A DNA stretch of 64,000 bases from a bacterium (GTDB lineage Bacteria; SAR324; XYD2-FULL-50-16), in contig JAHJTV010000063.1 of NCBI GenBank assembly GCA_018829445.1, positions 124,001-188,000 on the forward strand, read 5' to 3'. Positions within the stretch are counted from its first letter, which is position 1. The number at the start of each line of letters is the position of its first letter. The translations under genes and the position numbers were made by a program. Below the pieces are notes generated by a model. It made no database searches. It saw nothing but the letters and a program-made list of their open reading frames with translations, and was not told where the DNA came from. Shown here piece after piece: positions 48,182 to 62,348 of the stretch.

Positions 48182-48448
48182 AAATATCGTCCATGAGTAT
48201 TTACATAGCCGTTTATTTTGAAGCACAATAACCTTTCATTGATGCACACCCTCAAACCAACCCGGTTACGTTTCCATGAATAAAACAAATCCATTTTCCG
48301 GTGCGGTCTGTCTTTATCCGGAAAAGTATTTTCAAATTAGGGCTCACGGAACAATAGTACATGCCCCCCCATTTGAAAAATGCTTTTCTGGCGCAGTCCT
48401 ATGCTGCCAGTACATAATTCGAGCAATGAACCTTTAAGGAACAAACTC

Positions 48449-51400
48449 ATGCAAAAGATTGCTGTTATTGAAATGTCCTGTTTATTCCCGGGTGCAAAAA
48501 CACCCCGGGAGTTTATTGAGAATCTTAACAACCGGATAGATTCAACCTCAAATCACAGCAGCAGGCAAATGGGAGTAGACCCCCAACTTTACTACCATGA
48601 AAAAAAGGGGTTAGCGGATAAATATTACAGTCAAAGAGGCGGCTACATTACGGATTTTACGTTTGATCCCTCCGGTTACCTGATCGAAGAGGATTTTTTA
48701 AATCAACTCGATGATCTCTATAAATGGTCATTGTACGTAGCGAAAGAAGCCCTGGTCAATGGTGGTTATTACAATCAGCCGACACTTCAAAACTGCGGAT
48801 TGATTCTTGGCAATCTTTCCTTTCCCACCAAAACCTCCAACAAACTGTTTTTGCCTATTTATCACCGGGCTATTGAAACCGGGGTGAAAGAGTTGCTTGA
48901 CCTGGAAGATTTTAAGCTTATCGGAGAGAACCATACTGATGAAGCCAATTATATCAACAGCCGTATTTCCGGTTATCCTGCGGCTTTGATCTCCGAAGCG
49001 CTAGGATTATCAGGGCCCTATTTTGCCTTGGATGCTGCCTGTGCCTCTTCTCTTTTCGCCGTAAAACTGGCCTGTGATTACCTGGAGACAGGAAAAGCCG
49101 ACATCATGCTTGCCGGAGCGGTCAGCGCCGGAGATCCCTTTTTTATTAACCAGGGATTTTCGACTTTCACCGCCTATTCACAAAACGATATCAGCTGTCC
49201 ATTGGACAAACACTCGGAAGGTTTGATTTCAGGTGAGGGTGCAGGAATGTTCCTGCTGAAGCGTTTCGAAGACGCCCAAAGAGACAATGATCAAATCTTC
49301 GCAGTGATCTCAGGCATTGGTCTTTCAAATGATGGCAGGGGCAGATCGGTCTTGAGTCCTAATGTGAAAGGCCAGTTGCTAGCTTATCAACGGGCTTATG
49401 AGTCAACCGACATCAAACCTGAACAGGTTAACTATGTTGAATGCCATGCCACCGGAACCATGATAGGCGATGTGTCAGAGATTGAATCACTGGGAACTTT
49501 TTTTTCTAAGTACAATTCCGATCCCTATATCGGTTCCGTGAAAGCTAATTTTGGGCACCTGCTGAGTTGTGCCGGAATGGCCAGCATGATAAAAGTTATC
49601 CTGAGCATGGGGCAATCTGAAATCCCGGCAACCATCAATATTAAGACACCTATTGTCTCTTCGGGCAAAGTGGTGTCGTCCGGACTGCCCTGGACAAACC
49701 TGCAGCAACCAAAAATCGCAGCTGTTAATGCGTTTGGCTTTGGCGGAACCAATGCCCATCTTATTTTTGAACCCAATTCGGCTGAACAGAAAACTGGCGT
49801 GTTATCATCCGGAAGGAATCAAAAACAGTGTGACATGACCATCATTGGAATGGATGCCAGTTTCGGAGCCTGCAAAACGTTGGGTGAATTTGAACAAAGT
49901 ATTTATAAAGGAGAGCAACTCTTTACCGATCTCCCCCAAAAACGATGGAAAGGCCTGGAAAACCATGATTCAATCCTGAAAGCCTATGGTTTCGAAAGAG
50001 GGCAAGCCCCTCAGGGAGCTTATATTGAGGCGTTTGAATTTGATGCGCTTCATTTTAAGATCCCCCCCAAGGAAGTTGAAGCGATGATCCCTCAGCAATT
50101 GCTAATGCTTAAAGTAGCGGATAAAGCCCTCCAGGATGCTCAAATCAGAGAAGGAGAAAACGTGGGGGTGATAATTGCCATGGAATCCGATAAATCCTTG
50201 CATCAATTCAGAGGTCGCATTGACCTGGACTGGATGCTGGAGAAGGCTTTACAAACCAACCCTTTGCCGCTTACCAGCTCCCAACTTGCGACCCTGAAAA
50301 AAATATTAAAGGATGCCATCAGGAAACCGGTACAGGTCAACGAATTCACAAGCTTTATCGGTAACATCATGGCCAGCCGGATTGCAGCGCTCTGGGATTT
50401 TTCAGGTCCGGCCTTCACCCTGTCAGCAGAGGAAAATTCCGTATACAAGGCACTGGAAGTTGCCCAGATGATGCTAGGTAACAATGAGGTCGATGCCATC
50501 GTCGTCGGTGCCGTTGATCTTGCAGGCAATTTTGAGGATGTCCTGGTCAGAAACAGACTGATGGCTTCTGTTAGCTCAGGCAAATATACCATGGGTTTGG
50601 AATCTGGCGCTGAAGGCTGGATGGTTGGGGAAGGAGCCGGAGCAATTGTTTTGAAACGATCAGATCGAGCCCAAAAGGATCAAAACCGGGGTTATGCCGT
50701 TATCAACGCGGTTAGTCTGAACAATGGCGGTGATGAAAACGCCTTGGTTCTCAATTGCGGTAAAGCACTTACAGAGGCTGGAATAGCGGCATCCGATGTC
50801 GAGTATTTGGAACTGTCAGGAACAGTCGGTAATGAAGAAGAGGAGATAAGGGGATTGATAGAGTCTTACCAGCAGGCTCCCAGATTAAGCTGTGCCATGG
50901 GAAGTGTCTCTGCCAATATTGGTCATACTTTTGTCGCTTCCGGAATTGCCAGTATAATTAAAACGGCACTTTGCCTACACGGACAATACATTCCGGCGGT
51001 ACCGGGCTGGCAGTCCCCTAAGTCGGGTGCCTGGGGAAACAGCGCTTTTTATGTGGCAACCGATTCCAAAAGTTGGATAGTGAAAGAAGGGATTAAAAGA
51101 ACCGCCGCCGTAAACGGAACAGATGCAGATGGCACAGTAGCCCACGTTATCATGTCCGAAAACCCGATTCCACAGAGAAAAGAGAACACATACCGGACAC
51201 AAACCACCCCTTTTATTTTTCCCCTTGCTTCGGGTGATAATACAGGTCTCAAATCTCAACTGGAGTTTTTGGCGGAGGTTATTAAAAAATCGGAAAATCT
51301 CTATCTTTCGGCTTGTGAAAACTATATCCGATTTTCCCAAATCGATGAAAAAAAGAGGATCATTTCTATTTTAGGAAATGACAAAAACCAATTGGCAGGA

Positions 51401-54400
51401 GAAATTTCATCAGCCTTGACATTCCTGAACTCGGACCGATCTACCGATAAAGGCTGGCAATCTTCCCTGGGAAGTTATTTTACGCCAAAACCATTGTACA
51501 AAGCCGGTTCAGTCTCTTTTGTCTACCCCGGAGCTTTTAACTCGTATCTGGGAATGGGTAGGGACCTTCTTCGATCTTTTCCTGAACTGTCCGGTCTTTT
51601 GCCCACCTACACCTCCCATGTGGAAGCAGTTTTCCATGATCCGCTTGTTTTCCCAAGATCCATGAGTTCGCTGAGTGCATCAGAGATCGATCTGTTTCAG
51701 GAAAAGCTGGAAAGCGAGGTTATTCCAAACTTTGAAGCCGGTATAAATTTTGCCATTTTACATACAGCCCTATTAAGAGGCGCCTTTGGAATTCAACCGG
51801 ATTCAGCTTTCGGATATAGCATGGGTGAAGTCTCCATGGCATTTTCATTGGGTCTTTGGCAGAACACCGACAAAATACATACAGTATTGAACTCGGAGCC
51901 CCTGTTCCTGGAAAGACTGGCTGGTGCTATGAAAACAGCCCGGGAGGCTTGGAATCTCCCTTTGGACCAAACCGGGGAGAATCAGGATTCTCCCTGGGAA
52001 GCTTTTATCATCACCCACGATATCGAAGCCGTCAAACAAGCGGTTCAAAAGGAAGATCGGGTTTTTCTATTATTGATCAATTCCCCCGGGGAAATTGTTT
52101 TGGGCGGGGAGAAAAAAGCCTGTCAGAAATTTATTCAGTCAAATAATATAGCAGTAACGCCAGCCGGATTGTTTGATATTATTCACTGTGAACTTGTGAA
52201 GAAAGAGTATGAAAGCATCTATCAGATGTTTCATTCACCGGTTGTTCAAGAATCATCAATAAAATTTTATACCGCTGCCAACTACAAGCAGATAGAACTA
52301 TCCAGTCACACCCTGGCTGATAATATCGCTCAATTATACTGCCAGACCCTGGATTTTCCAAGGCTGGTAAACCAGGTGTACGAGGACGGGGCCAGAATAT
52401 TTATCGAGATCGGTCCTAAAAATACGTGTACAAACTGGATAGAAAAGATTTTGGATGAAAAGGAGCACCTGACAGTTTTAATGGACAGCAAATCTGAAAA
52501 CGGGTATTCCTCTCTGTTAAAAGCAATGGCCAGACTGATCTGCCACGGTACACCGGTGGATTTGTCGGCCCTATATCCCCGAACTGCTACGGAAATTGTT
52601 CAAAAAGATCACCGCGGTAGATCGATCAAGATTGGCGGAAACTCGATTTCGGATTCTATTTTGCTTCATGCGGACACAGAGGTGTTCCGCTTCCTGGAAG
52701 TCGAACAGCAACAAAATGATGTAATCCTGAAAGGGGTTGGAGAAAAAGAAACATTGGCCAAGCCAACTTTGCAGGAAAACCGACTTCCCGACTTGGCAGA
52801 TGATCTCTCTCAACAAACCCAATCCGAAGTTGACCAGTACAGAAGTCAGTTCAGTCGCAGCCATGGTGCTTTTCTGGAGGCCAGAAAGGCTTCCCTTAAC
52901 CATCTGAGAGAGATGATCAAGCTGCAGATTCTTCTGTCATCAGATCAACCTGCAGCACCTGTTTCCCCGGAGGAAAAAACGCCTTTCAAAGGAGATCCCT
53001 ATTTTTATCCTGAAGTCAGAAAACCGGTTTTTTCAAAGGAAATAATATGGGACGAAAACGATCTCCTTGAGTTCGCCGGTGGAAAAATAGCCAGGGTATT
53101 CGGAGAGGAATACGCCATTATAGATGGTTATCAATATCGGGTCAGACTGCCTTTACCTCCTTACCTTCTGGTCAACCGTGTTACCAAAATCGATGCTGCC
53201 TGTGGAGAATACAAGCCTTCATCACTGGTCACCGAATATGATATTCCGAAGAACGCCTGGTACAGCATCGACGGTCAGATCCCCTGGGCTATTGCCAGCG
53301 AAGCCGGTCAGTGCGACCTGTTATTGATCAGTTTCCTGGGGATTGATTTTCGGAGTAAAGGAGAGCGGTATTATCGGTTAACCGATTATACCATGACTTT
53401 TTTTGATCACCTGCCTAAAGAGGGAGACACACTCAGATACGAGATAAAAATCGAATCCTTTCTGAAGTTTGGGGAAGCCCTGTTTTTTAATTTCGGTTAT
53501 GACTGCTTTGTTAAGGATAAGCTGGTCTATAAAATGACCGGAGGTCGGGCAGGATTTACTTCAGATAAAGAACTGGCTCAGGGAAAGGGCATTGTGTTTT
53601 CAAAAACCGAAGAGCAGCAGCGGCTGAATGTCACCAGAAAATCGTTTACTCCCCTGTTACCGTGTTTAAAGGCCCGATTCTCCAGACAGGATCTTCTCAA
53701 TATATCCCAAGGGCGGATTGCCGATTGTTTTGGCCCCCGGTACGATCAACAGGGAGCTAATCCCTCTCTTAGATTTGCTTCCGAAGAGATATTGATGATC
53801 GACCGCATTGTTTCCATCGATAGACAGGGAGGCCCCTGGGGACTGGGAGAGATCGTGGCGGAAAAGGATCTTGCCCCGGATCATTGGTATTTCCCCTGCC
53901 ATTTCAAAGATGATAATGTTCTGGCCGGAACCCTGGTAACGGAAGGCTGTGTTCAATTGTTGGGATTCTATATGCTGTACCTGGGATTGCAAATCAACAC
54001 CAAGGATGCAAGGTTCCAGCCCATTCAAAACCGATCTTATGCAATCCGGGCCAGGGGACAGATTGTACCGACTGATACACGGTACAGTTATAAAATGGAG
54101 ATCATCGATATCGGAACAACTCCCCGACCTTATGCCAGAGCCAATTTCTATATCATCATGAACGACAGGATTCTGGTGGATTTTCGGGATCTTGGCATCG
54201 AGATGGTGGAAAAATCAAGTGATGATCCCTCTCTGAATCGTTCTCCGGCAAAGATTACCAGTCCGATAAAAAAGCCTCTATATGATTACAGCACCCTTGA
54301 AGAATTTGCCACCGGTTCCCTCGAAAAGGTATTCGGTCCGGAATTCAAAATCTATGACAACAAACGGGGGCCCAGGATTCCCAATAGTGATCTGTTATTG

Positions 54401-55417
54401 GTCAGCCGCATCCTGGAACTTAAGGGCGAGCGATTCAATTTTAAGGAGATCTCTGAAATAACCACCGAATATGATGTCCCTGCTGACGCCTGGTTTTTTG
54501 AGCAAAATTCGGTTCCCATTGTACCCTATTCGATTATTATGGAGATCGCGCTGCAGCCCAGCGCTTTTTTAAGTGGCTACATGGGAACGACTTTGCTTTA
54601 TCCGGATGCAGAGATGTGTTATCGCAACCTCAGTTCTGACGCTGAATTAGTCATTGTTCCCGATCTCCGTGGAAAAACCATCGTTAATAAAACCAGGATG
54701 CTGAATGTGTCTAAAGCTGCAGAAACGGTGGTGATGAACTTTGAATATGATCTCAGTTGCGATGATTTTACCTTCTATAAAGGGATTACCCAATTTGGAT
54801 ATTTTACTCCTCAGGCCCTGGACATGCAGAAAGGACTTGATCGTGGAGCAAAGATCCCCCCCTGGTTCACCAAAGAGAACCTTTTGCTGGATTCTGCCCG
54901 AAAGATAAACCTGCATTCTCCGGAAGCCCGAAATCGCTATTATCAAGCTTTGCCCACTCAACCCCGTTATCGGCTCGCTGGTGGCCAGCTTGAGTTTCTG
55001 GATGAAGCCTACATTTTTGAAAACCGGGGAAAATATGGAAAGGGTTATGTTTTTGCAACAAAAACCGTTGATCCAACGGACTGGTTTTACCCCTGTCATT
55101 TTTTTAAAGACCCTGTTATGCCAGGATCACTTGGAGTTGAAGCCATTCTTCAGACCATGAGACTATTTGTACTTCAACAGGACTTGGGTAAGACCCTGGT
55201 ATCACCCTACTTTACACATTATCCCGGAATCACCAAGTGGATTTACAGGGGACAGATAACACCGGATAATGAAGTGATGGATCTTGAGGTTCACATCAAA
55301 CAGATCGACCAACAGCCTGGTCAGGTTACGATAATCGCTGATGCCAATCTCTGGAAAAACAAACTTCGCATCTACCAGATTACTGACGCCGCAATTATGT
55401 TGAAAGGAGACAGATGA
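48449..55417 (+). CDS. pfaC: PfaC-like PUFA synthase: KS-CLF-AT-DH-DH megasynthase
   Basis: A 2322-residue multidomain synthase of the secondary-lipid/PUFA type, making long-chain polyunsaturated or related acyl products on ACP. Order: ketosynthase with Cys-His-His intact (LDAACASSLF near 195, ECHATGT near 331, ANFGHLL near 367); chain-length factor lacking the Cys (TLSAEENSVYK near 657); acyltransferase (GYSMGEVSMAF near 1122); then four hotdog units from about 1540 to the end. Two units carry FabA-like catalytic motifs (CHFKDDNVLAGTLVTEG and CHFFKDPVMPGSLGVEA), so two DH pairs. The track starts upstream, but AAGGA before the chosen ATG and the KS start support this one. Shewanella PfaC lacks the AT; the layout is closer to myxobacterial Pfa3 without its AGPAT. 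No ACP is present. Confidence 0.9.
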   Translation: MQKIAVIEMSCLFPGAKTPREFIENLNNRIDSTSNHSSRQMGVDPQLYYHEKKGLADKYYSQRGGYITDFTFDPSGYLIEEDFLNQLDDLYKWSLYVAKEALVNGGYYNQPTLQNCGLILGNLSFPTKTSNKLFLPIYHRAIETGVKELLDLEDFKLIGENHTDEANYINSRISGYPAALISEALGLSGPYFALDAACASSLFAVKLACDYLETGKADIMLAGAVSAGDPFFINQGFSTFTAYSQNDISCPLDKHSEGLISGEGAGMFLLKRFEDAQRDNDQIFAVISGIGLSNDGRGRSVLSPNVKGQLLAYQRAYESTDIKPEQVNYVECHATGTMIGDVSEIESLGTFFSKYNSDPYIGSVKANFGHLLSCAGMASMIKVILSMGQSEIPATINIKTPIVSSGKVVSSGLPWTNLQQPKIAAVNAFGFGGTNAHLIFEPNSAEQKTGVLSSGRNQKQCDMTIIGMDASFGACKTLGEFEQSIYKGEQLFTDLPQKRWKGLENHDSILKAYGFERGQAPQGAYIEAFEFDALHFKIPPKEVEAMIPQQLLMLKVADKALQDAQIREGENVGVIIAMESDKSLHQFRGRIDLDWMLEKALQTNPLPLTSSQLATLKKILKDAIRKPVQVNEFTSFIGNIMASRIAALWDFSGPAFTLSAEENSVYKALEVAQMMLGNNEVDAIVVGAVDLAGNFEDVLVRNRLMASVSSGKYTMGLESGAEGWMVGEGAGAIVLKRSDRAQKDQNRGYAVINAVSLNNGGDENALVLNCGKALTEAGIAASDVEYLELSGTVGNEEEEIRGLIESYQQAPRLSCAMGSVSANIGHTFVASGIASIIKTALCLHGQYIPAVPGWQSPKSGAWGNSAFYVATDSKSWIVKEGIKRTAAVNGTDADGTVAHVIMSENPIPQRKENTYRTQTTPFIFPLASGDNTGLKSQLEFLAEVIKKSENLYLSACENYIRFSQIDEKKRIISILGNDKNQLAGEISSALTFLNSDRSTDKGWQSSLGSYFTPKPLYKAGSVSFVYPGAFNSYLGMGRDLLRSFPELSGLLPTYTSHVEAVFHDPLVFPRSMSSLSASEIDLFQEKLESEVIPNFEAGINFAILHTALLRGAFGIQPDSAFGYSMGEVSMAFSLGLWQNTDKIHTVLNSEPLFLERLAGAMKTAREAWNLPLDQTGENQDSPWEAFIITHDIEAVKQAVQKEDRVFLLLINSPGEIVLGGEKKACQKFIQSNNIAVTPAGLFDIIHCELVKKEYESIYQMFHSPVVQESSIKFYTAANYKQIELSSHTLADNIAQLYCQTLDFPRLVNQVYEDGARIFIEIGPKNTCTNWIEKILDEKEHLTVLMDSKSENGYSSLLKAMARLICHGTPVDLSALYPRTATEIVQKDHRGRSIKIGGNSISDSILLHADTEVFRFLEVEQQQNDVILKGVGEKETLAKPTLQENRLPDLADDLSQQTQSEVDQYRSQFSRSHGAFLEARKASLNHLREMIKLQILLSSDQPAAPVSPEEKTPFKGDPYFYPEVRKPVFSKEIIWDENDLLEFAGGKIARVFGEEYAIIDGYQYRVRLPLPPYLLVNRVTKIDAACGEYKPSSLVTEYDIPKNAWYSIDGQIPWAIASEAGQCDLLLISFLGIDFRSKGERYYRLTDYTMTFFDHLPKEGDTLRYEIKIESFLKFGEALFFNFGYDCFVKDKLVYKMTGGRAGFTSDKELAQGKGIVFSKTEEQQRLNVTRKSFTPLLPCLKARFSRQDLLNISQGRIADCFGPRYDQQGANPSLRFASEEILMIDRIVSIDRQGGPWGLGEIVAEKDLAPDHWYFPCHFKDDNVLAGTLVTEGCVQLLGFYMLYLGLQINTKDARFQPIQNRSYAIRARGQIVPTDTRYSYKMEIIDIGTTPRPYARANFYIIMNDRILVDFRDLGIEMVEKSSDDPSLNRSPAKITSPIKKPLYDYSTLEEFATGSLEKVFGPEFKIYDNKRGPRIPNSDLLLVSRILELKGERFNFKEISEITTEYDVPADAWFFEQNSVPIVPYSIIMEIALQPSAFLSGYMGTTLLYPDAEMCYRNLSSDAELVIVPDLRGKTIVNKTRMLNVSKAAETVVMNFEYDLSCDDFTFYKGITQFGYFTPQALDMQKGLDRGAKIPPWFTKENLLLDSARKINLHSPEARNRYYQALPTQPRYRLAGGQLEFLDEAYIFENRGKYGKGYVFATKTVDPTDWFYPCHFFKDPVMPGSLGVEAILQTMRLFVLQQDLGKTLVSPYFTHYPGITKWIYRGQITPDNEVMDLEVHIKQIDQQPGQVTIIADANLWKNKLRIYQITDAAIMLKGDR

Positions 55418-57063
55418 TGACAGCTTTACCCAACACCCTGACCTGTTCTGAGACAATCAGACCCAATCTGGCATGGAGCGGGAAAGAAGAAACAATCGAA
55501 TATGAGGAATCTTCAATCAGGGACAGGCTACTGGCACTAGAACAGCCCTGCTTTATCATAAAAACAAAAAAGGGAATCGGAGTAAGCGGTGAGGGCACAA
55601 TTCAGGGTGAGTTCTCAGACAAAAGCGATCATCGATTATTGTGTTTCATCCCGGCTCTGACAGCAAAAAACCTGGGTGATGAAGGATTTAAAAATTCTTA
55701 TAAAACACCTTATGCCTATTATACGGGTTCCATGGCCCATGGGATCTCTTCGGTGGATATGGTTATGTCCCTGGGAAAACAGGGTTTTCTCTCCTCCTTT
55801 GGAGCCGGTGGTGTCATCCCTGCTAAACTGGAAGAGGCGATCAATCAGATCCAGGGAGAGTTGCCGGAAGGACCATACGCCTTTAATCTGATCCATAATC
55901 CCTTTTTTGAAGCGCTGGAACGTAATTCCGTGGAAACCTATTTGAAGTATGGCATTACCACAGTGGAAGCGTCCGCCTATATGGATCTGACCCCTTATGT
56001 GGTCTTATACCGGGTGGCAGGGTTAAGCGAAGCACCGGATGGAAGTGTTCTTAAGAAAAACAGAATTATAGCAAAAATATCAAGGAGAGAAGTCGCCACT
56101 AAATTCATGGAGCCGCCCCCGGAGAAGATCCTGGCAAAGCTGCTGGAGCAGAAACTGATCACTCAGGAGCAAGCCAACATGGCAAAACAGGTGCCCATGG
56201 CTGATGATGTAACAGTTGAAGCTGACTCAGGAGGTCATACCGACAACCGCCCCCTGGTATCGATATTACCTTCCATGATTGCCCTGCGCAACGAGATTCA
56301 ATCCAGATACAATTATGATCAACCCATACGTATTGGTGCCGCCGGAGGAATCGCGACTCCTGAGTCCGCACTGGCGGCTTTTATGATGGGTGCTTCTTAT
56401 GTGGTAACCGGTTCCGTGAACCAGGCGTGTATCGAAGCGGGAACATCCCCGGCAGTTCAAAACCTGCTGGCGCAAACACAGATGGCCGATGTTGTCATGG
56501 CACCGGCGTTTGATATGTTTGAGATGGGGGGCAGACTTCAGGTTTTAAAAAGGGGAACTCTGTTTGCCATGAGGGCTCAAAAGCTGGCTGATTTTTATCA
56601 CAACTACCGCTCAATTGAGGAGATCCCGGTAGCGGAAAAAGAGAAACTTGAAAAGCAGGTCTTCCGCAAGAGCCTGGAGGAGATCTGGCAGGGTACAGTC
56701 GAGTTTTTTAACCAAAGAGACCCGGAACAGATCGAAAAAGCCAATAAGAATCCAAGGAAAAAGATGGCCCTGGTATTCCGTTGGTACCTGGGCCTGGCAT
56801 CCCACTGGGCTAACTCGGGTGAAAAAGGCAGGGAGATGGATTACCAGATCTGGTGTGGACCCTCAATGGGAGCTTTCAACGATTGGGTTCGCGGGTCTTA
56901 TTTAGAGGAGGTTGGTAACAGGAAAGTGGTCGATGTGGCGAAAAACATTCTCGATGGGGCTGCATACCTTTATCGTATTCAACAACTAAAAATGCGAAAT
57001 ATCCACCTTCCCGTTTTTTTCAGCCAATATACGCCACGGCCGATTAAATCGATATCCATGTAA
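55414..57063 (+). CDS. pfaD: PfaD-like trans enoyl reductase of PUFA synthase
   Basis: A 549-residue FMN-dependent TIM-barrel enoyl reductase of the PfaD/nitronate-monooxygenase superfamily, which reduces selected double bonds for the Pfa synthase. Landmarks: GSMAHGISSVDMVMSLGKQG, SFGAGGVIPAKLEEAI, FNLIHNPFFEALE, VTVEADSGGHTDNRP (the catalytic-region His), IGAAGGIATPESALAAFMMGA and YVVTGSVNQACIEAGTS. The length is typical of PfaD. The ATG overlaps the pfaC stop (ATGATGA, after AAAGGAGACAG), so the two are translationally coupled. Confidence 0.93.
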   Translation: MMTALPNTLTCSETIRPNLAWSGKEETIEYEESSIRDRLLALEQPCFIIKTKKGIGVSGEGTIQGEFSDKSDHRLLCFIPALTAKNLGDEGFKNSYKTPYAYYTGSMAHGISSVDMVMSLGKQGFLSSFGAGGVIPAKLEEAINQIQGELPEGPYAFNLIHNPFFEALERNSVETYLKYGITTVEASAYMDLTPYVVLYRVAGLSEAPDGSVLKKNRIIAKISRREVATKFMEPPPEKILAKLLEQKLITQEQANMAKQVPMADDVTVEADSGGHTDNRPLVSILPSMIALRNEIQSRYNYDQPIRIGAAGGIATPESALAAFMMGASYVVTGSVNQACIEAGTSPAVQNLLAQTQMADVVMAPAFDMFEMGGRLQVLKRGTLFAMRAQKLADFYHNYRSIEEIPVAEKEKLEKQVFRKSLEEIWQGTVEFFNQRDPEQIEKANKNPRKKMALVFRWYLGLASHWANSGEKGREMDYQIWCGPSMGAFNDWVRGSYLEEVGNRKVVDVAKNILDGAAYLYRIQQLKMRNIHLPVFFSQYTPRPIKSISM

Positions 57064-57160: not shown

Positions 57161-59575
57161 TTACAGGGTTTGATCAACCTGGGGCAGATCCAGATAAATC
57201 CCCTTTCTTCTCTGCCGAATAACCCGCCTGATATTGTCTATTATGACAGGAACATGACAGGCAAATTCCGCTTCAAATTCAAGAACATCAATATCTTCCA
57301 ATGCTGTTACTGTGTGTAAACGAGTATCATTCTGAGTGATATTCTGCAAAAAGAACTCACACTCACCAACCAAATCGGGTCCTGTAAACCTCTTTTCCTT
57401 TTCCCCAATTTTTATAACAACAGGTCCGTTGGCAATGAAGAGTCGTTTATCATGCTCTCCAATTTTAATTAAGGCGTCTCCCTTAAGTACCCTTTTTTGA
57501 TGGCTGTTTCTGGCAATTCTATTCAAAACCGTGGTGGACAAATCCTGCGAAAAATCACTGGCTGATTGGAGTATCAGCCGTCTTTCAAACATCTCTTTGA
57601 AATATCCGTCATAATTGACATTCAATGCATTCATCGCCTCAATAAATAGGCTCGCGGGGATACGGAGGAATCGGAGCCGATTGAGGGTTTTAACCGAAGC
57701 CATTCGAGGTTGCCGGGCAAGAACACCAATATCACCCATTACCTCTCCGTCCCCGACACCTGAACGTGCTATTACTTCTCCCTGGCTGTCATAGGACAAA
57801 AACTCCGCTCTTCCTCTGACAATGATGTAGACGCTGTCCGAAATATCCCCTTGTTCAATCATGAAGGTTCCGATATTCGGATTTACCTGGGTGGGAGTGT
57901 TCGCAAAAACATAGGCATAGTAGCGCATGGTCTTGTATTGATTATCATCTATCTCATCACCAAGAATGCTTTTAAAATAATCCAGGATAAGGTTGAAGGC
58001 TTGAAAGAAATAGGGAATCACGGGATCTAAACCAACACCAAAGTTTTTTACGCTGCCATCCGGCATCCTGATGGTTTTATCCAGATCGCCTACCCTGACA
58101 AAACGTCCCTCCTTTTCATAATCCTTGCTTAGCAGACTTTTTGTGACATGAGTAAAAACACGATTAGACCGTTCTGTTTTCGCTTTTTTCAAATCCTGCC
58201 ACTGGCCATGCACCGTAAATGGCAGGGAATTTTCTGTTGCACATCCGGCATCGTACTTGATCAGGTCGTACGTTTGCTTGCGTATCACATTGTCGAGATG
58301 CTCCAGATGAGCTTCGGGCATCCACCCATCCTTAACCATCTTTTTCATTCGTTTAAAGGCCACTATATCCAAGAAGTGCCCATATCGATACTGATCCCCT
58401 TCAAGTTGAAAATCAAAGGAGTAAACCGTTGTGGGAACACTGTGGCAACTCAGATGTCCGGTAATTTTGATCCCTTCCAGGTTATAAGTCTCTGTTTGGT
58501 ATGGGTTCTCCTTCAAAAATGGCAGAATCGTCCAAGAAAAACAGTTTTCTACCTGCTTCTCCGGAATATCCACCAGAGTGGAGATTTTCCTGACGACAGA
58601 AAATTTGACCGGCTCGGTGGTAATTATATGGCAGGGACTGTTCCGTCTGAACAGTTCCACCATGGCACCAATATGATCGTCATGGTTATGGGTAACCAGG
58701 ATATGATGAATTGATTGTTTCGATAAACCGTTATGGTTAATAATATCCGTCATGTTGGATGGATAATCGATCATGATCGGTTCATACTTGTGGATGACGG
58801 TGGTATGAGCACAGCTGTTATAAGGGTCCATGCCGTCGAATTCCCCCGTGTGCCAGATACCGAAATTGGTGATGGGGAATTTTAGATGTTTATATTCCAC
58901 CGGAGCTCTGAAGCGCTCAGTTACCTCCAGCGATACATCTATATCAATTGAATCACTTTGATAGATGATACGATACCGGTTATAGTCAAGGCGCCCAATA
59001 TAAACACCATCTCCGATATCGCTGTAGTCGCTTTCGCCTTTTGGCTTTGGATCCAGATGGATCGAGTTGACGAAGGAGTGACTGTCTTTTATCTCATTCC
59101 CGACAGAAAGGCCAAGGATCTCCTTTCTCAAGGCATCCCGTGTTCCTTCCGGGATGTCCATATCATCCAGCTCTTCCAACCGATCTACACCGTAGTTACC
59201 ATACTTGATCATCATCAGGGCTTTTTGAACATCCGGTTCCAAACCGATCAGGGTTGGATACTGTCCGGCATAAAAAGCGGGCAGCAGTTTGCCTTCTGAT
59301 TCAACCAGGCAGAGATAAAGCGCATAAAGGATTGGAAACTCAACCAACACCCAGCAGATCGAATCGTCCTGAATCTTGGAGTCAACCAACACAAACGAAT
59401 TAACCGCATTTCTTCCGTAGTAGCCGACTTGCTGTAAACGTTTCACCACATCAGGCGGTTGACCGAAACTGATCCTCCGGTCTTTTTCAGTTATTTCAAC
59501 CACAAAAACACCGGGGTCCAATTTGTTAACAACTATCTTACCTTTTGGACTTACGGACTGCAGCCTTCGTTTCAT
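57161..59575 (-). CDS. metallo-beta-lactamase-fold protein with two cyclic-nucleotide-binding domains
   Basis: A soluble protein of about 804 residues. An N-terminal region of about 200 residues matches nothing I know. A metallo-beta-lactamase fold follows, with the HxHxDH metal site LVTHNHDDHIGAM near 295 and later ligand candidates GHLSCHSVPTT and YGHFLDI. Two cNMP/CRP-like domains close the chain: FMIEQGDISDSVYIIVRGRAE with GEVMGDIGVLARQPRMASV (about 565-635), and KGDALIKIGEHDKRLF with LVGECEFFL (about 690-760). No DNA-binding helix-turn-helix is seen. A cyclic-nucleotide-gated hydrolase is the simplest reading. Start chosen by GGAGAG before the internal Met (MKRRLQSVSPKG); the track start is 22 codons upstream. 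It converges on pfaD. Confidence 0.8.
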   Translation of the reverse strand: MKRRLQSVSPKGKIVVNKLDPGVFVVEITEKDRRISFGQPPDVVKRLQQVGYYGRNAVNSFVLVDSKIQDDSICWVLVEFPILYALYLCLVESEGKLLPAFYAGQYPTLIGLEPDVQKALMMIKYGNYGVDRLEELDDMDIPEGTRDALRKEILGLSVGNEIKDSHSFVNSIHLDPKPKGESDYSDIGDGVYIGRLDYNRYRIIYQSDSIDIDVSLEVTERFRAPVEYKHLKFPITNFGIWHTGEFDGMDPYNSCAHTTVIHKYEPIMIDYPSNMTDIINHNGLSKQSIHHILVTHNHDDHIGAMVELFRRNSPCHIITTEPVKFSVVRKISTLVDIPEKQVENCFSWTILPFLKENPYQTETYNLEGIKITGHLSCHSVPTTVYSFDFQLEGDQYRYGHFLDIVAFKRMKKMVKDGWMPEAHLEHLDNVIRKQTYDLIKYDAGCATENSLPFTVHGQWQDLKKAKTERSNRVFTHVTKSLLSKDYEKEGRFVRVGDLDKTIRMPDGSVKNFGVGLDPVIPYFFQAFNLILDYFKSILGDEIDDNQYKTMRYYAYVFANTPTQVNPNIGTFMIEQGDISDSVYIIVRGRAEFLSYDSQGEVIARSGVGDGEVMGDIGVLARQPRMASVKTLNRLRFLRIPASLFIEAMNALNVNYDGYFKEMFERRLILQSASDFSQDLSTTVLNRIARNSHQKRVLKGDALIKIGEHDKRLFIANGPVVIKIGEKEKRFTGPDLVGECEFFLQNITQNDTRLHTVTALEDIDVLEFEAEFACHVPVIIDNIRRVIRQRRKGIYLDLPQVDQTL

Positions 59576-59948
59576 CTTTGATCTCTCTCCAAAAGCTCTA
59601 TATGCGATGGTAAACGCTCTAGCCAAGGCTAAAGTACCCATCTTTTTGTGCCGGATAATATGGTTACTAATATACTGAAATAGCGGCTACAAATCAATCA
59701 TTACAGGGAATTTGAAATTATTTAAGGTTTTTTCGAAACAAGCTAAGCATAATTCAAGCCTAAATCAGCAAATGGAGAGAGTTTCCGCCATATTGATTTT
59801 TGAAGGAAATCGGATTGGTACGTATGATTGACAGGCAACTTTGAATATAAAAAGGGATGAATTAATTCCGAGAGGTGCAACCCATTCCTGCAAGACAGCT
59901 AATCAGGCAGAAATGGGTCAGAGTTGACAGGGGAGAGTATCAGTGAGC
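59576..59948. other. intergenic region upstream of MBL/cNMP gene
   Basis: About 370 bases without a supported gene between two minus-strand genes. It should carry the MBL/cNMP promoter. No strong repeat or terminator seen. Confidence 0.45.
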
Positions 59949-61379
59949 CTATTCGATAGCCAGGGAATTTTCAACAGCAATGGGAAGCTGCTCTGCAGTT
60001 CTTTCTATCACCAGCATCTTCTTCCAACTTCCATTTCTAAATCGTAGGAAGAAAATCAATCCCAGGGAAGCAATATATACCGATGCAATTCCCCAAGCCA
60101 CGAAAAGATGCCATTTAAAGACCACAATGGCAAAATAGCTGGGAATCACCAACAATCCCCATGATGCAATCATAATTGCCTTCATTACGAATTTTGTATC
60201 GCCGGCGCCTTTAATCGCCGAAGAGAAGATAATGAGAAATGCATCGAACAGGGAATAAAAGGCGACGAACCGTAACAAAATAATACCATAGTCTAAAATC
60301 TGCGCAAAAGCCTTGGCATCACCCACGGCACCAAAGGGTTGCAGAAAAACCTTCGGAAAAACCAGATAACAAACAGATATGAGAGACATGTAAATAAAGG
60401 ACAAATGAGCTGCAGACCATGTTGCATACTCAGCTGCCTCAGCCTTGTTATCTCCCAGATTCTGTCCGACTAAAACAGATACTGCTATTCCCAATCCAAT
60501 CATTGGCATAAACGCCAAATTGTTAATATTAAATGCAATATTGGTCGCTGCCAATTCTATTTTTCCGTATCTACCCACTAACATCAGGAAGAGGGTGAAG
60601 CCCAGCATATCAATAAAAAATTGGAATCCGGCGGGAAACCCGTATCTGATAAGCCTTTGAAAAAGCTCTTTGTCGAACGGCATCCCCTTGATGATCCCAT
60701 ATTTCTCACGATAGGACTTTTGGAATATCATTATAAAAAACAGAATCATGCCAAACGCAATAGCCAATACCGTTGCGATGGCGGCGCCCTTGATCCCTAA
60801 TTCCGGGAATCCGAAATTGCCGAAAATCAGCAGATAATCCAAAATGATATTAATAACGGTCACAACCGCATTTACCCACATTACCGTCCAGGTTGATCCC
60901 AAACCGCTGAAAAAACCGGAAAGTGCAGAAGAGACTACCGGGAAAAAGCCCCCCAGGCATAATATTGTAAAATACTGACTCTCCAGCTCCATTACTTCCG
61001 GCGAATGACCCGCAAGTTTAAAAATCGGATCGGACAGAGGGATAAAAATCAACATCACCACAATCACTATCAAGGAAAAATAAATTCCCTGCCAAACAGC
61101 TTTCCCGATTTTTTCGTATTGCTTCGAACCGTAATACTGAGCGACAAAGGCGCTAACATAAGACGCTGTTCCAATAAAAAGACTCAATATTGTAAAATTT
61201 AAAATCCCGGCTGGCATTGCAGCTGCGATTGCTTCCGGTGAGTACCATGTCAGAAATATCCGATCCACAAAATGCTGTATGGACATAGCAGCTGTACTTA
61301 AAATCAAAGGTATGGCAATTGTTAACACTTCCCGATACCCGCTTTTCCCATGCCAGCGGGCAATTACTCGATTTAACAT
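59949..61379 (-). CDS. MATE-family multidrug/metabolite exporter
   Basis: An inner-membrane MATE antiporter of about 476 residues with 12 predicted helices in two six-helix halves. Landmarks: ILTIAIPLILSTAAMSIQHFVDRIFL at the first helix, FVAQYYGSKQYEKIGKAVWQG, and the second-half equivalent LVGQNLGDNKAEAAEYATWSA. AGGTG seven bases before MLNRVIARWHG and the position of helix 1 support this start over the track's. MATE proteins export drugs or metabolites against Na+ or H+; the substrate here is unknown. Confidence 0.9.
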   Translation of the reverse strand: MLNRVIARWHGKSGYREVLTIAIPLILSTAAMSIQHFVDRIFLTWYSPEAIAAAMPAGILNFTILSLFIGTASYVSAFVAQYYGSKQYEKIGKAVWQGIYFSLIVIVVMLIFIPLSDPIFKLAGHSPEVMELESQYFTILCLGGFFPVVSSALSGFFSGLGSTWTVMWVNAVVTVINIILDYLLIFGNFGFPELGIKGAAIATVLAIAFGMILFFIMIFQKSYREKYGIIKGMPFDKELFQRLIRYGFPAGFQFFIDMLGFTLFLMLVGRYGKIELAATNIAFNINNLAFMPMIGLGIAVSVLVGQNLGDNKAEAAEYATWSAAHLSFIYMSLISVCYLVFPKVFLQPFGAVGDAKAFAQILDYGIILLRFVAFYSLFDAFLIIFSSAIKGAGDTKFVMKAIMIASWGLLVIPSYFAIVVFKWHLFVAWGIASVYIASLGLIFFLRFRNGSWKKMLVIERTAEQLPIAVENSLAIE

Positions 61380-62348
61380 CTCATTCACCTGAATATAACT
61401 CTGTCTGCCCGAGAAACGAGCAAGACCCAAATTCCCTTTTAGAAAATATATAAAACCAAAAATTAACTGTGAGTTAAATTTTGGTTTCTGACAAGTTTTT
61501 TTTGCATCCAATTATGTTTTACCAAAATCAGTTTTGACTGTGGATTAATCACCAAATATGGACTCACATGAAAAGTTGAGAAATAGGCAATATATCAGGA
61601 GATTATCATTCAACACGATCAATATCTTAAATGAGCAATATTGCTAATGACATCCCGTAAAAAACCGATCTGATCTTTTAATTAATCTCTAACAAAAGGA
61701 TATTAACACCAATTACATTTGCTATGTGATAACAGATCAATATCAAGAAAAATATTTGAGGATCAGCCTGGAGATTCTCCATTACCAATATTATATCAAT
61801 TCCCCATGTATTTTACGGTTGCAGAACAGTGTGCCATCTGCTTACAATTGCGCCAAACAGATAATGATTACAACGACTGGGTGACTAAGGCCGCAGAGAA
61901 CTTCTATTGAAGGGTCTATGGCACATAATACTCATATTTTGATATGAATATTTTCAGTTGATGCCCGTTTTCTTGGGATATTCCAACAATGCCGACCAGT
62001 TAGGAGCTTGATTCGTTTCCAAAGGTACCCCTTGATATCCACGAATCAAAATGTTTCTTCCAAGGTTTGATTACATACCTGAATAGTCGAAGTTTGCAGA
62101 CACAGGGATGTGACCGATATATTATCATTTTTTAAATTGATCTATAATTATGGCAGTTGTCTTGGTAAAATTTGCCCCTGTACCAAGAAGCAGGTATTGA
62201 AAAGTCCCCGTTATTCCGAGTTTTAGTTTTAATCCGGGAAACGCATTCCCGATTTTCAGAGATCTAAATTTGGCATACTATTCGGGTAGCACGAGCGAAT
62301 TAGTTTATCTCACAGTTAGACAAAAAATAGTCATAAAAGAACTGAACT
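61380..62348. other. 969-base intergenic region
   Basis: Separates two divergent genes. The only sizeable open frame (63 codons near 61.7-61.9 kb) has no recognisable similarity and no ribosome site. A CGGGAA/TTCCCG hairpin followed by ATTTT (62235-62255) resembles a weak terminator about 95 bases before the kinase start. Nothing else seen. Confidence 0.45.

Follow-up and report, generated by a model that had tools for sequence, protein, structure and literature searches.

The locus and its neighborhood

The window, meaning the whole 64,000-nucleotide stretch of DNA analyzed here, derives from a bacterium that is probably marine. It encodes a protein of 804 amino acids, in which a conserved N-terminal region (the N-domain) is followed by a metallo-β-lactamase (MBL) domain and two cyclic-nucleotide (cNMP)-binding domains, CNBD1 and CNBD2 (Table 1). 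A further in-frame ATG lies upstream at position 59641; according to the alignment, the start at 59575 is the position used in most orthologs. The product is a standalone protein, presumably located in the cytosol.

Table 1. Coordinates of the 804-residue protein and its features in the window
Feature	Position	Strand	Basis
CDS, 804 aa: N-domain, MBL, CNBD1, CNBD2	57161..59575	-	ORF, alignment, AlphaFold2
N-terminal conserved domain, residues 1-190	59006..59575	-	conserved in 39 members
MBL-fold catalytic domain, residues 237-512	58040..58867	-	Pfam in relatives, profile and Foldseek matches
HNHDDH metal motif, residues 296-301	58673..58690	-	HxHDDH invariant in A1 and A3
H378, third-motif ligand candidate	58442..58444	-	invariant; aligns with Apyc1 histidine
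D403, candidate bridging aspartate	58367..58369	-	invariant in A1 and A3; role inferred
H476, last-motif ligand candidate	58148..58150	-	invariant in A1 and A3; role inferred
CNBD1 (Pfam cNMP_binding), phosphate-binding cassette GDIGVLARQPRMAS with R624	57629..57871	-	
CNBD2, cassette GECEFFL...TRLHT with R752	57266..57496	-	

A MATE transporter gene (59949-61511) lies upstream on the same strand, with a gap of 374 bp. An operon of the two genes was considered and discarded, as a same-genus relative has no MATE gene at this place, though it keeps the histidine kinase gene beyond. Promoter and terminator scans at the locus remained at chance level. No conserved operon partner was found across the family: the 101 immediate neighbors scanned were heterogeneous, and none of the domains for histidine kinase, response regulator, hemerythrin or cyclase occurred in more than six of them, the cyclase domain in three. 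At two family loci (L077:12645-14870 and L088:1204-3465) a CHASE2/cyclase-type gene adjoins the family member. On the other side of the 804-residue CDS is pfaD (55414-57063, plus strand), convergent with it at a distance of about 100 bp. Adjoining pfaD is the gene of a 2345-residue protein (48380-55417, plus strand) with ketosynthase, PfaB-type and FabA/FabZ-type dehydratase regions.

The catalytic half and the N-domain

The first-pass annotation had described an HxHxDH metal site and two CNBDs in one chain, behind some 200 residues of unassigned fold, and had proposed structure prediction of the full chain as a check. The AlphaFold2 model of all 804 residues (mean pLDDT 86.5, pTM 0.90) agrees with this description, as does that of the core, residues 1-512 (pLDDT 86.8, pTM 0.90). 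For the protein alone, the Pfam match to Lactamase_B was below the cut-off (1e-3); the same family was matched by all 22 aligned family members, the best at 2e-10. Two alignments were used for the metal site, A1 with 22 family members and A3 with 39. Twelve residues are invariant in A1 (H296, H298, D299, D300, H301, H378, H400, D403, D442, H456, D461 and H476), and the same candidate ligands are invariant in A3, with a single mismatch, at H400 in L131. Loss of the metal ligands, which the first-pass annotation had named as evidence against its reading, was thus not observed.

The folds closest to the core in Foldseek were PhnP, RNase Z/ELAC1, Apyc1 and YhfI, at target TM scores of about 0.6-0.7, and an MBL arylsulfatase was also among its structural neighbors. 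Apyc1 was the best PDB profile match of the catalytic half (3e-9). As PhnP, RNase Z and the arylsulfatase scored equally with Apyc1 against the core, the substrate cannot be read from the fold. By profile and predicted structure, the catalytic half matches the RNase Z/class II-type phosphodiesterase branch of the MBL superfamily and points to no single substrate. Pfam gave no match to PDEase_II (PF02112), either in the protein or in its genome. In RNase Z, a flexible arm sits between the third-motif histidine and the bridging aspartate. Here, H378 and D403 are spaced by 25 residues with a β hairpin between them (alignment and AlphaFold2 core model), so the arm is absent, which speaks against a function as RNase Z in tRNA 3′ processing.

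The N-terminal region of about 200 residues has no Pfam match, yet it is conserved in both A1 and A3, and seven of its residues (P40, K45, E79, F80, G111, G129 and E135) are invariant across the 39 members of A3. It is perhaps a degenerate MBL pseudo-domain. Foldseek suggests as much, as ELAC2, the long form of tRNase Z, aligned to the core over 671 columns with a query TM of 0.51, compared to about 0.37 for single-domain relatives. The other two tests gave no support to an MBL duplication: profile-profile comparison of the two core halves returned E = 0.42, and in the secondary-structure order test 47 of 150 shuffles scored equally high, which is not significant. The possible likeness to ELAC2 would lie in a tandem of degenerate and active MBL domains; ELAC2 differs in having no CNBDs and in its RNase Z arm.

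The CNBDs and the protein family

Pfam found two cNMP_binding stretches in the protein (1.7e-19, whole protein), and a PDB comparison with the full chain matched the tandem CNBDs to the regulatory domains of PKG and PKA. No helix-turn-helix family was matched in Pfam, and NCBIfam gave only CNBD cross-matches. The protein lacks the C-terminal helix-turn-helix of a CRP/FNR regulator, just as the first-pass annotation had maintained. An anti-phage system was likewise set aside, the PADLOC matches consisting of CNBD cross-matches and a weak MBL match to LmuA. Within the phosphate-binding cassettes, CNBD2 has both the glutamate and the arginine, whereas CNBD1 has the arginine with an aspartate at the position of the usual ribose-binding glutamate.

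Nine of 52 genomes from the phylum carry a close ortholog, about 56-73% identical. In the tree, the eight full-length sequences group in a single clade on a long stem (SH-aLRT 99), and all eight have G-D-x8-R in CNBD1 and GE...R in CNBD2. Members of the wider family are mostly 20-30% identical to the window protein. Among the matches listed, they are spread over many phyla and come from Magnetococcales, Magnetospirillum, Spirochaetes, Betaproteobacteria and others, a spread that is a lower bound. The CNBD1 arginine is absent in 41 of 43 wider-family members; that of CNBD2 was counted in 14 of 43 with a loose pattern, a figure on which we do not rely. Judged by the cassette arginines, binding of cNMP seems within reach of the window clade, but not of most of the wider family. 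As the CNBD1 arginine is mostly missing there, cNMP switching is not a trait common to all family members.

Relatives of about 480 residues without CNBDs form a clade in the tree. One paralog in the same genome (L010, G000:C97:31172-32578) is of this length and lacks CNBDs; another (L011, G000:C44:53256-54440) has CNBDs and a hemerythrin-like C-terminus. In L011 and L018, the C-terminal hemerythrin-like region is fused to MBL and CNBD. An HMM built from two members located such a region in 28 of 74 family members (ORFs in L059-L138), and Pfam confirmed hemerythrin in the two source members. Judging by this fusion, oxygen or redox may serve as input in the wider family, which mostly lacks the arginine. 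With respect to the ligand, the genome of the window gave 12 Guanylate_cyc matches, corresponding to several class III cyclase genes, and cNMP is plausibly available in the cell, judging by these gene matches. All 52 genomes of the class, however, had Guanylate_cyc matches, and for this reason the presence of cyclases does not discriminate.

A proposed cNMP-switched phosphodiesterase, its rivals and known systems

Dictyostelium GbpA (cGMP) and GbpB (cAMP) are class IIb MBL phosphodiesterases, intracellular single chains in which the MBL domain is followed by two CNBDs and in which cNMP binding activates hydrolysis (PMC11988041). The window protein has the same domain order by Pfam and AlphaFold2. 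By analogy, it would be a cNMP-switched, probably feedback-activated phosphodiesterase, a reading to which we assign a probability of roughly 0.5. The two C-terminal CNBDs would bind cAMP or cGMP; the bound nucleotide would switch the RNase Z/class II-type MBL phosphodiesterase of the same chain, in the direction suggested by GbpA/GbpB; and the MBL domain would, most likely, hydrolyze cyclic mononucleotides. In favor of this proposal are the domains, the intact metal ligands, the cassette arginines of the clade, the nearest folds and the cyclase genes. Against it stand the aspartate of CNBD1, the non-discriminating distribution of the cyclases, their scarcity among the neighbors (3/101) and the missing arginine of the wider family. 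The first-pass model of a hydrolase switched by a cyclic nucleotide is accordingly plausible in its core, by the GbpA/GbpB precedent, and loses its connection to the pfa pathway (see below).

A lesser possibility, still to be taken seriously, is that the CNBDs tie the reaction to the cAMP or cGMP level while the substrate is not cNMP: it could be RNA, a sulfate ester or, as in PhnP, some different cyclic phosphate. In structure, PhnP, RNase Z, ELAC1 and the MBL arylsulfatase are as close as Apyc1. The absence of the RNase Z arm argues against such a substrate, as does the fact that the only characterized proteins found with this domain order hydrolyze cNMP (PMC11988041). We consider it rather unlikely that the CNBDs of the window protein have a structural role or a ligand other than cNMP, leaving its MBL domain free of control by cNMP, a state that is likely in a large part of the wider family. 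The loss of the CNBD1 arginine in that family, the clade of CNBD-less relatives and the aspartate in CNBD1 of the window protein itself are in line with it; the retention of the CNBD1 arginine and of GE...R in CNBD2 throughout the full-length window clade is not. Very improbable is the first-pass proposal of a pfa-pathway enzyme acting on lipids or lipid-linked signals, for which the convergent pfaD speaks in the window and both linkage and co-occurrence fail elsewhere. Among the orthologs of the nine genomes, only the one in the window has pfaD next to it; in the two same-genus relatives the genes are on different contigs. A whole-genome family-model search, a firmer test for pfaD than ORF picking, which is crude in the high-GC relatives, found none above the cut-off in six of these nine; at 3 of 9 versus 29 of 43 other genomes, pfaD is if anything rarer with the ortholog (Fisher p = 0.07), absence in a single genome being weak evidence, given that incomplete genomes and short ortholog contigs are among them. 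The annotation had itself named a lack of conserved pfa neighborhood as counter-evidence, and the fatty-acid genes are probably beside the 804-residue CDS by chance.

To our knowledge, bacterial phosphodiesterases that end cAMP or cGMP signals rarely carry CNBDs of their own. Bd1971 is a bacterial enzyme with a CNBD, joined to an EAL phosphodiesterase domain instead of the MBL. Apyc1 and Bacillus subtilis YhfI, which have been reported to hydrolyze cyclic mononucleotides (PMC9117128), share the HxHxDH MBL fold; they differ in being homodimeric single-domain proteins of about 250 residues, with neither CNBD nor N-domain. A literature search for MBL or class II phosphodiesterases combined with CNBDs, within open-license papers, returned nothing except the Dictyostelium review. 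The window protein is best read as a bacterial counterpart of GbpA/GbpB, a putative cNMP-switched phosphodiesterase that may share descent with them; those proteins are eukaryotic, and the likeness is one of published domain order. More speculatively, this widespread and apparently undescribed bacterial family might correspond in prokaryotes to the cNMP-activated phosphodiesterases of Dictyostelium and perhaps be their source, with one clade keeping cNMP sensing and most members having exchanged it for a different signal, for instance oxygen or redox by way of the fused hemerythrin. The split between a clade with the CNBD1 arginine and a wider family that mostly lacks it provides a built-in experimental control. 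If the enzyme is feedback-activated, it would make the origin of GbpA/GbpB a question for a phylogenetic tree to settle, and it would offer a control loop open to direct testing, its parts ordered as in the amoeba enzymes, in a phylum that has class III cyclases in every genome searched.
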